Assembly: GCF_027942295.1 (NCBI RefSeq)
Contig: NZ_CP101416.1
Location: 682,001 to 746,000, forward strand
DNA: 64,000 nucleotides
Reading direction: 5' to 3'
Source of the DNA: Pseudanabaena sp. Chao 1811
GTDB lineage: Bacteria; Cyanobacteriota; Cyanobacteriia; Pseudanabaenales; Pseudanabaenaceae
The notes under the pieces: model-generated
Databases searched by the model: none
Told to the model about the DNA's origin: nothing
What the model saw: the letters and a program-made list of their open reading frames with translations, nothing else
Program-made: the position numbers and the translations under genes
Shown: piece by piece, positions 14,866-54,001 of the stretch
How the letters are laid out: every line of letters starts with the position of its first letter
Numbering within the stretch: position 1 is the first letter of the stretch

Positions 14866-15561
14866 ATGACTGCAAAGAAAGTACTGGTAATTGACGACAG
14901 CATCATGATCCGCAAAATGGTTAAAAGCATTTTGGCGGGCAAGTATGATGTCTTAGAAGCAAGTGACGGTAAATCAGGCTTAGATGCCGCTCGTCGCAGC
15001 TTTCCTGACCTAATTTTGCTTGACTTCGTGATGCCCAAATATAATGGCTATCAAACTTTACAAGCAATTCGACGTGTCGAAGGGTTACAAAAAGTCCCTG
15101 TAATCATGATTTCGGGACTCAAAGAACAAGTTACAGAACATGTTCCCGAACCCTTCACTGAGTTTGATTTTCTCGAAAAACCCTTTGAAGCTGATGTCTT
15201 GGTTTCACGGATCCAAGCCTTTTTAACTACTGAGCCTGTTCAACCTGTCTCGGCGGCAAATGCTAGATCCTCTGCACCTGCTGTGGTTAGGGAAATACAA
15301 CCACCCAGCGAAGAGCCTAGTTTACAAATGATTCTCAATCGACTTACATCGACGGAAACTTTGTTAGTCCAAGGAATTGAAAACCTGATTCAGCGTGAAG
15401 TTGTAGCTAGAGTTAATGAGTTAAATACAAAGATTGAGCATCAAGATCAAGCGATCAAATTGTTAAATCAGCGTATGGATAAAGTTTCTGAACAAATTGA
15501 TCATCAAAATAAAGGCTTGATGGTGATTTTGCGAGAACTCAAAGCTTTACAAGGCAAATAA
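14866..15561 (+). CDS. Response regulator with coiled-coil output region
   Basis: 231 residues. Residues 1-120 form a CheY-like receiver: Asp10/Asp11, phospho-acceptor Asp53 in ILLDFVMP, a Ser in VIMISG and Lys in FLEKPF. A Pro/Ala-rich linker follows, then from about residue 150 a coiled coil (LLVQGIENLIQREVVARVNE, later ALKLL/MDKVSEQI-type heptads) in place of a DNA-binding domain. Output is probably by protein contact. The kinase partner is not evident here. Confidence 0.88.
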   Translation: MTAKKVLVIDDSIMIRKMVKSILAGKYDVLEASDGKSGLDAARRSFPDLILLDFVMPKYNGYQTLQAIRRVEGLQKVPVIMISGLKEQVTEHVPEPFTEFDFLEKPFEADVLVSRIQAFLTTEPVQPVSAANARSSAPAVVREIQPPSEEPSLQMILNRLTSTETLLVQGIENLIQREVVARVNELNTKIEHQDQAIKLLNQRMDKVSEQIDHQNKGLMVILRELKALQGK

Positions 15562-15592
15562 AAAAGGGAGGCACTTAGAGCCTCCCTTTTTT
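15560..15592 (+). terminator. Intrinsic terminator of the response regulator
   Basis: AAAAAGGGAGGC pairs with GCCTCCCTTTTT around a 7-base loop, ending in a T-run; it also faces the convergent cruF. Confidence 0.9.
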
Positions 15593-15607
15593 ATTTGCAA
15601 ATCCAGT

Positions 15608-19444: not shown

Positions 19445-19738
19445 TTGGATAGTCCCTCACCACGTCAAGTACTTGTATGTCAATACCGCACCTGTACTAA
19501 AGACGGTGCAGGTCAAGTTTTAGCAGCATTGCAACAGCAGAAAATCCCTAATGTGACGATAAAATCCTGTGGATGTTTGGGGTTATGTGGCTCTGGTCCC
19601 ATAGTTATGGTGTTGCCAGACAATGTTTATTACTGGCACATTACCCCTAAAAAAGCTCAAGCAATTATCACCACACATTTACTTGGCAATACACCTATAC
19701 AGTCAATGCTGCATCCTCGACTGCACCCAAAACATTAA
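19445..19738 (+). CDS. Thioredoxin-like [2Fe-2S] ferredoxin
   Basis: 97 residues. Cys residues in VCQYRTCTKDGA and KSCGCLGLCGSGP reproduce the C-x4-C and C-x3-C pattern of the thioredoxin-like 2Fe-2S fold seen in NuoE C-termini and cyanobacterial (2Fe-2S) proteins. YYWHITPKKAQAII follows as in that family. The start is a TTG (19445) and is uncertain by a few codons. Its stop codon lies inside the following 20-bp hairpin stem. Confidence 0.82.
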   Translation: MDSPSPRQVLVCQYRTCTKDGAGQVLAALQQQKIPNVTIKSCGCLGLCGSGPIVMVLPDNVYYWHITPKKAQAIITTHLLGNTPIQSMLHPRLHPKH

Positions 19739-19770
19739 AGGCAGTGCAAAGCACTGCCTTTAATGTTTTG
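19728..19770 (+). terminator. 20-bp hairpin spanning the ferredoxin stop codon
   Basis: CAAAACATTAAAGGCAGTGC (19728-19747) pairs perfectly with 19751-19770 around the 3-base loop AAA. The TAA stop is in the left arm, so the last codons of the gene belong to the hairpin. Confidence 0.8.
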
Positions 19771-35622: not shown

Positions 35623-35661
35623 GAGGATTGTGTCCCTGCCTTCGGCAGGGACACAATCCTC
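35623..35661. repeat. Hairpin repeat, GTGTCCCTGCC family
   Basis: A perfect 18-bp stem (GAGGATTGTGTCCCTGCC) with the 3-base loop TTC. Related copies at 36058, 40158 and 53626. Confidence 0.8.
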
Positions 35662-36023: not shown

Positions 36024-36126
36024 CGGACGGCATATAGCGCTTTTCAATCCGAGGTACAGGGTTGTGTCCCCGCCGAAGGCGGGGACACAACCCTATTAAT
36101 TCACTAGATTGGTATACGCTATAACG
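36024..36126. repeat. Hairpin repeat element, GTGTCCCCGCC family
   Basis: A perfect 17-bp stem (36058-36074/36078-36094), loop GAA, flanked by CATATAGCGCTTTTCAATC on the left and ATTGGTATACGCTATA on the right. The same flanks, inverted, occur around the copy at 53626-53666. It lies between PCD and the kinase gene. Confidence 0.75.
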
Positions 36127-39039: not shown

Positions 39040-39074
39040 AAGAGAGTTGTCGCGCTTTGCGCGACAACTCTCTT
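39040..39074. terminator. Terminator of the pentapeptide gene
   Basis: A perfect 16-bp stem (AAGAGAGTTGTCGCGC) with the 3-base loop TTT, just beyond the stop of the minus-strand pentapeptide gene. Confidence 0.75.
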
Positions 39075-39941: not shown

Positions 39942-40204
39942 AGTTAATCTTTACTCGCAAAGAAATTTAGTAAACTCTAATTCATATAAAGCATAGCGCT
40001 GATCGTAATTTTCAAGTTATCGGCAACAACTCGCAAATCACAAAAGCTATATTTATATCTTCCTATGATTTTTACATCACGCATTAATAATGTATAGCAA
40101 TGCTTGAACAAGGATTGCTAGCTGCACTCAGGCATTGCGATAAAAAACCATCTAGTGTGTGTCTCCGCCGCAGGCGGAGACACAATCCTCTGCTTGAAAA
40201 GCGC
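39942..40204. other. Intergenic region with a GTGTCTCCGCC hairpin
   Basis: No gene. A 12-bp perfect stem (40158-40169/40173-40184, loop GCA) with CACAATCCTCT and AAAGCGCTATATA flanks is a member of the GTGTCCCCGCC repeat family. Confidence 0.65.
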
Positions 40205-45615: not shown

Positions 45616-45648
45616 ATTAATAAGCCCCGCTATGCGGGGCTTATTAAT
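45616..45648 (+). terminator. lgt terminator hairpin
   Basis: A perfect 15-bp stem (ATTAATAAGCCCCGC) with the 3-base loop TAT, located between lgt and the DUF2232 gene. Confidence 0.8.
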
Positions 45649-48710: not shown

Positions 48711-49040
48711 AAGTACCTCTTTAGCGAATTCAAAATAAATGACACTTGGCAACGGTTCAAAGTTCCTTGACAGTAGATAATTGTCACCGTGTCAACATAA
48801 CGTAACAATACTTTAAACTCATTGAATGAAGTGTATCATGACAAACATTTTTTCTACGATATACCTAAAGAAATATTTTATAAAAACTTATACAGGCATT
48901 ACTTATGACAACTATAAGTAAACCTATAGCGTACTAGTCTAGTTAGGAAATAAATCCAGAATACGAGTGGTGTTACTTCAGGTTAATACTCGATTCTTGG
49001 GTTTTGATTTGTCCTATATATCACAATACAAATTTTGCTT
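48711..49040. other. Intergenic region upstream of the NblA-like gene
   Basis: No gene is evident. It presumably carries the promoter of the NblA-like gene; no NtcA-type GTAN8TAC was found. Confidence 0.4.
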
Positions 49041-50168: not shown

Positions 50169-50223
50169 AAGAAACCAATTTTTGGTGGCGCGGCTTTACC
50201 TCGCCACCAAAAATTGGTTTCTT
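50169..50223. repeat. 22-bp hairpin upstream of rnpB
   Basis: A perfect 22-bp stem (AAGAAACCAATTTTTGGTGGCG at 50169-50190, complement at 50102-type position 50202-50223) with an 11-base loop. It lies in the 375-bp gap between the SpoIID gene and rnpB, which is otherwise empty. Confidence 0.7.
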
Positions 50224-50356
50224 TATTTAATCGCTGACCCCGAATAAGTAACTGCGGCACTGACTTACACAACCAGAGAATAGTGAAAAACCCTAGAAAG
50301 GACTTTCACCATTAGCGGATCATTGGTTTTCCTTTGTTAGTACATAATAGAGATAA

Positions 50357-50813
50357 GAAAGAGTAAGCGTGCAGTTGCGAAACTTATCTCAAAATTTATT
50401 TTGAGTATAGGTTTTGAGGAAAGTCCGGGCTTCCATGAAGATCAGGCTGCTGGATAACGCCCAGTGCGAGCGATCGTGAGGACAGTGCCACAGAAAGATA
50501 CCGCCCACGAGAAATGCGCAAAGCGCATTTCTCGTGAGTAAGGGTGCAAAGGTGTGTTAAGAGCGCACCAGCAGAGTCGTGAGGCTCTGGCTCGGTAAAC
50601 CCCAGTTGGAAGCAAGGCGAGAGGATATAGGAGTTTCGATCTTCAATTGCTCTTGTATCCGTTGCTTAAATACGATTGTTAGGCGAAAGCTTGGCGATCT
50701 AATGTTAAGTGTGTGCCGCAAGAGGTATTTGGTAACAAATATCCCAGATAGATAACTGCTAAGGGAGTTGATAAGACTCCTGAAACAGAACCCGGCTTAT
50801 GTCTTGCTCTTTC
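50357..50813 (+). ncRNA. rnpB: RNase P RNA
   Basis: About 457 bases of class A RNase P RNA. P1 is formed by GAAAGAG (50357-50363) and CTCTTTC (50807-50813). The conserved GAGGAAAGTCCGGGCTTC, CAGTGCCACAGAAA, GGTAAACCCC and ACAGAACCCGGCTTA blocks are in order. An extra 14-bp hairpin lies in the variable P12 area (50506-50536). The RNA cleaves tRNA precursors together with RnpA. Confidence 0.96.
50506..50536 (+). repeat. 3-base-loop hairpin inside RNase P RNA (P12 region)
   Basis: CACGAGAAATGCGC (50506-50519) pairs perfectly with 50523-50536 around AAA. It follows AAGATACCGCC and precedes AGTAAGGGTG, where cyanobacterial RNase P RNAs vary in length. The design matches the hairpins elsewhere in the window. 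Confidence 0.85.
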
Positions 50814-51118
50814 TCTAAAAAATTGTTTTGACTGACTCAAAAAAACAAAAAGCAGATTTTTGTTTTTTTTGATAGAAATCTGGTAAATCTAGATCTTGTT
50901 ATTGTCTGCGTTCTCTTTATATCCGTTTGCAATCAAAACAACCACAATATTTTTCTTGAAAGTCCTTTAAGCAAAGCTTTCAGCAAAAATGTTAGTTCTA
51001 GTTTCAGCGCCAAGCACTGCGATTGCAGATTTTAAGGTTATGCACCTAGCTGCATTTTTGTTCTTGTATTCTGCCGAGACATTAAAACTAGATTAGTTAA
51101 AACTAGAGTAAGTAAACT
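50814..51118. other. Intergenic region after rnpB
   Basis: No gene. It contains AT-rich sequence and no distinct terminator beyond a T-run near 50865. It should carry the promoter of the HD protein. Confidence 0.4.
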
Positions 51119-53589: not shown

Positions 53590-54001
53590 CCAAGTCATAT
53601 ATAGCGTATACCAATCTGGTGAAGTAGAGGATTGTGTCCCCGCCGCAGGCGGGGACACAATCCTCTAAAAGCTCTATAGAGTCAAATAAAGTTAAGACAT
53701 AAAAAACAAAAGTATAGTTGCGTCGCTTTGCGACGCAACTATACTTTTGTTTTTTGCGTTTGTCCTAGTACAAACGCGAGTTCGGGATAATTTGAAACGG
53801 TCTGTGAGAGAGGGTTTGCTACGCAAACCCTCTCTCACAGACCAAAAGTAAAAGCCTTGCTCAGCAAGGCTTTTACTTTTGGTCTTTTAAAAATTTGTCA
53901 GCTTAACCACCCGAACGTGAGTTCGATAACGCCATTTGCGCGGCGCTTCGCGCCGCACAAATGGCGTTATCGAACTCACGTTCGTACAACTGGCTACTGG
54001 T
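53590..54001. repeat. Cluster of five long hairpins
   Basis: In order: 19-bp stem 53626-53666 (loop GCA, GTGTCCCCGCC family); 26-bp stem 53701-53755 (loop TTT); 21-bp stem 53799-53843 (loop TAC); 22-bp stem 53839-53885 (loop TCA), which overlaps the previous one; 35-bp stem with one mismatch 53912-53984 (loop TTC). No gene lies within. The last is flanked by CGAACGTGAGTTCGATAAC, related to the ends of the element at 29186-29303. Confidence 0.85.

Follow-up and report, generated by a model that had tools for sequence, protein, structure and literature searches.

Perfect hairpins are numerous in the DNA of Pseudanabaena sp. Chao 1811, and one of them lies within rnpB, the gene for the RNA of RNase P, which is an essential RNA. 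It forms the distal part of helix P12, and its presence there raises the question of how such a hairpin arises in a catalytic RNA and what keeps its two arms matched. We address this question for a 64,000-nucleotide stretch (the window) covering positions 682,001 to 746,000 of contig NZ_CP101416.1, in comparison with related genomes. Paired changes in the arms and exact inversions of the loop suggest that a copying process acting on DNA, and not selection on the RNA alone, keeps the arms of P12 matched and flips its tip. We consider it probable that template switching between the hairpin arms at replication perfects, rewrites, and flips hairpins in these genomes, that the tip of P12 tolerates this, and that the long form of P12 is ancestral in the genus.

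Paired changes and loop orientation in helix P12

The hairpin is a real and variable side-arm of the RNase P ribozyme (Table 1). The search with RF00010 gave a single match in the 4.73-Mb genome, and the alignment, by which a misplaced P12 assignment is ruled out, puts the hairpin at the distal end of P12. This agrees with the initial annotation, which had described a perfect stem of 14 bp, closed by an AAA loop and extending the variable P12 region. At the base of the helix, CCGC (50501-50504) pairs with GT (50538-50539) and GG (50542-50543), with an unpaired AA between the latter two. Above these pairs come a single C/A mismatch and then the distal hairpin (50506-50536), whose arms of 14 nt each are complementary throughout and close on the AAA loop. 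As single-stranded DNA, this 31-mer has a predicted folding energy of -16.6 kcal/mol (z, -8.9). No short tandem repeats of the STRR type were seen in its letters when read by eye. The hairpin is not a terminator, as it is internal to the RNA and is not followed by a run of T; a separate A/T stem lies downstream of rnpB at 50839-50869. That a hairpin of this kind is tolerated in a functional RNA, as the annotation had also proposed, is well supported, the RNA in which it sits being essential.

Table 1. Features of rnpB and of intergenic hairpins with inverted loops, in window coordinates
Feature	Position	Strand	Evidence or comparison with the sister genome (G015)
rnpB, RNase P RNA class A	50359..50815	+	RF00010, 241.5 bits, E 2.5e-77, model 1-367 of 367
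Helix P12	50501..50543	+	Rfam consensus alignment; local RNA fold; distal 14 pairs also in whole-RNA fold
Distal hairpin, 5' arm	50506..50519	+	100% complementary to 50523-50536
P12 triloop AAA	50520..50522	+	TTT (reverse complement) in G015; orthologous alignment
Distal hairpin, 3' arm	50523..50536	+	3/14 pairs with two-sided changes in G015, still Watson-Crick
Intergenic hairpin, same build	19728..19770		AAA here, TTT in G015; one paired change
Intergenic hairpin	39040..39074		TTT here, AAA in G015; three paired changes
Intergenic hairpin	45616..45648		TAT here, ATA in G015; one paired change
Intergenic hairpin	15554..15598		7-nt loop exactly inverted in G015

The relatives considered were drawn from a family-level sample of 38 genomes, 26 of Pseudanabaena and 12 of seven other genera, and sampling at the level of the order yielded these same 38; below, labels in G denote genomes (G000 being the window genome and G015 its sister) and labels in L denote sequences. 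rnpB was found in 24 of the 26 Pseudanabaena genomes, the window gene included. The check put forward by the annotation, namely whether the hairpin is variable or absent in relatives, revealed considerable variation: P12 is long with a triloop in 16 of the 24 genes, short in 6, and different from both in 2. Thirteen of the long stems are unbroken (two of them with one G-U pair), and three contain mismatches (L004, L018, and L019).

Two comparisons of close relatives illustrate how the long form changes. Between G000 and G015, in which the core of rnpB is 96.9% identical, the loop is AAA in one and TTT in the other, and the 14-bp stem carries three two-sided pair changes and no one-sided change. 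Between L005 and L013 (core 97.4% identical), there is one matched pair change, and the loop reads GAA in one and TTC in the other. Among all 16 long forms, the loop is GAA, AAA, or GAG in 12 and TTC or TTT in 4. Judged by eye, these four pyrimidine loops fall on separate branches of the rpoB tree, as in the case of L013 with TTC beside its sister L005 with GAA.

The standard proof that selection maintains an RNA structure is paired change in its stems, and P12 of this catalytic RNA covaries strongly. Eight of 22 pairs have changed on both sides in an alignment of seven long P12s, as have 11 of 19 in an alignment of four; in neither case was the score reached in any of 500 shuffles, although these alignments cover 11 of the 16 long forms, in two length classes, and their related rows make the shuffles lenient. 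Selection of matching mutations at the RNA level, with a freely drifting loop, would explain why P12 is a real, covarying helix and why decayed or half-changed stems exist (L018, L019, and L011). However, the exact inversion of loops is not predicted by RNA-level compensation, and G-U pairs are nearly missing from the distal stems of the long forms (2 of 258 pairs; 7 of 340 across all 24 P12s). In other helices of the same genes, they are common: 67/385 in P3, 47/253 in P16 (found in 23 of the 24 genes), 27/144 in P14, 28/190 in P18, and 35/262 in P8-P9, or 13 to 19 per 100 pairs in these five segments, all counted in predicted folds. We regard P3 (22 distinct sequences), P16 (17), and P8-P9 (15) as the fair comparators, because P14 and P18 hold few distinct sequences. 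Moreover, six relatives manage with a short P12, and intergenic hairpins bear identical marks (see below). As the only force at work, RNA-level compensation is thus improbable in our estimation. The exact reverse-complement loops, together with the near absence of G-U pairs, suggest that the paired changes result from copying of one DNA arm to the other.

The same marks at intergenic hairpins

Hairpins built like that of P12 are abundant in this genome. Counting perfect stems of 12 bp or more with loops of 0 to 8 nt, the window contains 23 nonoverlapping hairpins, versus 0 or 1 in each of ten dinucleotide shuffles, and a 384-kb sample of the genome that includes the window contains 131, versus 1 in a local shuffle. 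The genome-wide total may be extrapolated to roughly 1,500; a 200-kb stretch of E. coli K-12 contains 5 hairpins whose stems reach 12 bp. Most are intergenic, as 217 of 233 hairpins in 718 kb lie outside open reading frames of at least 100 codons, which cover 79.5% of the sequence. The loop is effectively 3 nt long in 97 of the 131 hairpins, and the commonest triloops form reverse-complement pairs: GAA (17) and TTC (9), TTT (13) and AAA (8), TAA (8) and TTA (7), TAC (4) and GTA (4), and GCA (3) and TGC (3). Triloops similar to d(GCGAAGC) are very stable in DNA.

We compared 134 hairpins of G000 with G015, to which its syntenic stretches are mostly 94 to 95% identical. Of the 31 loops that were comparable, 11 are exactly inverted and 7 are the same; a further 5 are near-inverted, 4 near-same, 2 ambiguous, 1 of different length (AAA to TTTT), and 1 self-complementary. 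Were the loops of orthologous hairpins drawn independently of each other from the triloops observed, at least 11 inversions among 30 would have a P of about 6e-6. In the arms, 487 pairs are the same, 35 have changed on both sides to another Watson-Crick pair, and 3 have changed on both sides to a nonpairing combination. A further case, seen by eye, is an intergenic hairpin with the same flanks and identical arms in G016 (L089:526-546) and G021 (L090:512-532), with the loop GAA in one and TTC in the other. Because the pattern of P12 recurs at intergenic hairpins, part of its covariation signal may be a signature of mutation.

The closest pair of genomes, G007 and G006, differs at 601 positions in 129 kb (0.47%), and at this low divergence inversion is already frequent. 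Among 47 hairpins, the loop is inverted in 14, identical in 23, and self-complementary in 1, with 9 not comparable, and only 4 of 658 arm pairs have changed (654 are the same). The inverted fraction increases with the length of the stem, from 0/9 at 9 to 11 bp to 4/15 at 12 to 15 bp, 4/11 at 16 to 19 bp, and 6/11 at 20 bp or more; the numbers are small, and inversions are seen from 12 bp on. With 14 of 37 loops inverted at 0.0047 substitutions per site, each hairpin would have flipped about 0.7 times by a hand estimate. In order of magnitude, this is a hundred flips per hairpin per substitution per site, with an open upper bound because the inverted fraction approaches one half.

A trend with stem length is also what might be expected if assemblers chose an arbitrary orientation for a loop between long inverted arms, and one genome of this pair, G006, is probably a metagenome assembly. 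Yet flips occur at 14-bp stems with loops of 3 or 4 nt, which short k-mers span, and several of them are accompanied by paired changes in the arms. G000 and G007 are single contigs, and the pyrimidine loop of P12 occurs in four genomes from separate assemblies. An artefact of assembly or sequencing is consequently a very improbable source of the inversions.

For comparison, 200 kb of E. coli K-12 with 32 hairpins (stems of at least 9 bp) was examined against E. coli HS, which is 1.1% distant. None of the 25 comparable loops was inverted (23 were the same and 2 were other; of the remaining hairpins, 1 was self-complementary, 3 had no partner, and 3 were skipped), but this control is weak, because nearly all its stems are shorter. 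It says nothing about whether fast flipping is special to Pseudanabaena.

Probable template switching and other possible routes in DNA

The observations could be connected as follows. After one arm has mutated, replication would stall at the DNA hairpin, and the stalled polymerase could change to a new template, either the other arm or the sister-strand complement of that arm. Such copying would convert a one-sided change into a matched one; a switch spanning the loop would leave the loop inverted. Many intergenic hairpins of these genomes would be subject to the same events. In the ribozyme, the tip of P12 presumably makes no essential contact, so that any perfect stem would suffice. P12 may bear such rewriting because its sequence is not conserved and the helix is described as sometimes dispensable, with cyanobacteria as an example (PMC2858038, citing Vioque 1997). 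We find that one process, template switching, is the best reading of the matched changes, the inversion of loops, the trend with stem length, and the scarcity of intermediates.

A second route in DNA would involve cutting of the hairpin or cruciform by a structure nuclease, of which SbcCD exemplifies the type, or by a junction resolvase, followed by rejoining or repair from the other arm with the loop flipped. The end products would be the same, and a first step in which a hairpin or cruciform is extruded would fit the stem-length trend. Nonetheless, published cases with the same marks have been assigned to template switching (PMC8604942 and PMC8794818), and we view the nuclease or resolvase route as possible but doubtful.

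Several points weigh against template switching as the explanation. Such copying is deduced from its products, and other processes in DNA would leave identical marks. The G-U count omits the basal G-U pair of P12, which is common to the 11 long forms that were aligned. It also includes P14 and P18, which comprise only 5 and 6 distinct sequences, so a few conserved pairs in them were counted repeatedly. Not all changes are paired: the differences of L018 and L019 from L014 include unpaired ones, L011 differs by one G-U, the P12 stem of L004 has decayed, and 23 arm pairs between G000 and G015 have changed on one side only, several of them at the outer ends of stems. Loops of P12 favor the purine version by 12 to 4, and some preference for it at the RNA level may remain. 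Of the 134 hairpins of G000, 27 have no orthologous hairpin in G015, and 76 could not be compared for want of usable flanks. Finally, the probable metagenome origin of G006 bears on the closest comparison, and the E. coli control included 5 stems of 12 bp or more, of which the 3 comparable ones were all the same.

A stronger version of the template-switching reading is that Pseudanabaena has an unusually active regime of hairpin processing or template switching, perhaps with dedicated or altered enzymes. The approximately 1,500 hairpins would then be flipped and recopied far faster than point mutation occurs, and a ribozyme helix would be rewritten by mutation bias, as a single-step form of "compensatory evolution." This idea is speculative, and we hold it only tentatively.

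Template switching as such is already known from ribosomal RNA, yeast, and plastids; what is new is that it would act in P12 and how often it would do so in these genomes. Plastids descend from cyanobacteria, and the nearest natural parallel comes from plastid intergenic DNA, as opposed to the catalytic RNA considered here, without a common cause being implied. Small hairpin-associated inversions of plastid spacers such as trnH-psbA are described as frequent, palindrome linked, and feared within species (PMC2903610). Switching between inverted arms, which homogenizes the arms and flips the spacer, has been documented in reports on yeast (PMC8604942), ribosomal RNA (PMC8794818), and E. coli reporters (PMC7202029). 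Monttinen and Loytynoja (2022; PMC8794818) attribute the creation and maintenance of RNA hairpins to template-switch mutations, with bacterial cases shown; like P12, their hairpins have several matched changes per stem, loop inversion, and perfection via copying of arms during DNA replication. Their Table 1 lists 6 cases of compensatory change with loop inversion and 69 of loop inversion alone. Their data are rRNA genes, and "RNase P" is absent from the text as available, whereas here P12 of rnpB has flipped repeatedly within one genus. Abraham and Hazkani-Covo (2021; PMC8604942) describe ten spacer inversions in yeast coding sequence, GAA/TTC spacers among them, in contrast to the 14 of 37 comparable, mostly intergenic hairpins at 0.47% divergence reported here. 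Among the best matches of a literature search, judged by title and the beginning of the abstract, no paper dealing with inverted loops, whether of rnpB or of Pseudanabaena hairpins, was found, which is weak evidence given that many more papers matched and that most subscription journals lay outside the search. The word Pseudanabaena is likewise absent from the available text of two surveys of bacterial inverted repeats (PMC13155455 and PMC10434271). The P12 hairpin is likely a further example of a process already described, and it stands out because this process is so frequent here and operates within a catalytic RNA. At low divergence, Pseudanabaena has numerous natural flip sites that can be counted, which would allow direct measurement of how fast arms are copied onto each other, how this depends on stem length, and what its genetics are.

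Age and source of the long P12

The initial annotation had proposed that hairpins can enter or grow within a functional RNA. Of these alternatives, growth is likely, with copying in DNA as its cause, whereas recent entry by insertion is unlikely for this strain in view of the genus-wide distribution of the long form, which is present in G003, the deepest Pseudanabaena branch of an rpoB tree that includes six genomes of other genera. This tree was used in place of one from rnpB alone, whose resolution was poor (of 21 inner branches, 13 were open), and it lacks L007, as rpoB of G011 is split in two pieces. Well-supported branches force at least four changes of the long-P12 state, and the best tree has six. 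Because the deepest-branching member has the long form, we read the long P12 as old and lost several times. A single gain at the base of the genus with several losses is, by eye, the simplest history, although insertions at single nodes may have added later gains. The ancestor shared by the genus would accordingly have had a long, perfect P12 with a 3-nt loop, which several lineages then shortened or replaced, and the strain studied here most likely inherited its long P12. The same P12 with compensatory changes, which would mark an ancestral helix if carried by all relatives, occurs with strong covariation in 15 of 23, though not in all.

The arms of the long forms share sequence around AGANATA, in favor of a single gain. 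The short forms (L002, L007, L015, L016, L022, and L023) have a tetraloop GAAA, GAGA, or TTCG in five cases, and the tetraloop bases match bases that face an exact complement in the long form (L007 versus L009 and L002 versus L008). Of the two remaining forms, L017 and L021, the latter contains AT-rich heptamer repeats. Repeats of this TACTTTT type fill P12 in L021 (G005) and in L037 (G030), which belong to two different genera. P12 in the 12 genomes of other genera is short, moderate, or long and imperfect (two, L029 and L031, were not captured by the search expression and were classified by eye), and long P12s occur there in L032, L035, and L036.

These forms bear on whether a mobile hairpin element was inserted into the P12 loop, either in the ancestor of the genus or subsequently, an origin compatible with template switching as the process acting since. 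The shorter or differently built P12s of the other genera agree with an insertion, as does the evidence that P12 accepts inserts, namely the heptamer repeats of L021 and L037 and the long P12s of L032, L035, and L036. Dispersed hairpin repeats occur nearby: a nearly perfect hairpin at 50169-50228, upstream of rnpB, has many dispersed matches in four relatives, and the window hairpins at 35623, 36058, and 38955 are absent from G015. The tip itself, however, is not a high-copy sequence. Its 17 nt occur at one exact place in the genome and at three places with two mismatches, both changes being paired each time, which rules out that the hairpin is a copy of a high-copy repeat. The tip typical of relatives occurs at 10 places across the 26 genomes, of which 6 coincide in coordinates with rnpB and 4 do not. 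No target duplication was seen by eye, the relatives with short P12s are too distant to provide clean empty sites, and the sister G015 carries the hairpin. Nor would a plain insertion explain why the bases equivalent to the tetraloop face an exact complement in the long forms. On balance, a mobile insertion is unlikely. The annotation had also called the P12 hairpin one of the same type as others in the window; this is true of its build (a perfect stem, a 3-nt loop, and a GC-rich apex) but not of its sequence, which is not a copy.

In 1997, Vioque reportedly found STRR repeats, tandem according to the title, in rnpB of heterocystous cyanobacteria. The likeness to P12 is that repetitive DNA is tolerated in a cyanobacterial rnpB; STRR repeats are tandem, though, whereas the window hairpin is a single perfect palindrome, and it is L021 and L037 that look closer to STRR.

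A few further matches and repeats were observed. L025 (G025:C1:1586405-1586471) is a weak second RF00010 match of 67 bases; its 21.6 bits fall short of the gathering score of 100, and it is likely due to chance. A pattern taken from the region of rnpB after P15 also matches contigs L116, L123, and L129 (titled Acidobacteria, Clostridia, and uncultured bacterium, respectively), presumably by chance or contamination. In the window, a repeated hairpin family with a core of approximately TGTGTCCCCGCC-NNN-GGCGGGGACACA occurs at 35623-35661, 36058-36094, 40158-40184, and 53625-53667, with the loops TTC, GAA, GCA, and GCA, respectively; the first two copies are those missing from G015. A 27-bp short dispersed repeat at 48990-49016 has 17 dispersed matches of 96% in G015. 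In one intergenic region, which is quite different in G015, the 360 bp from 53625 to 53984 hold five hairpins that are perfect or nearly so.
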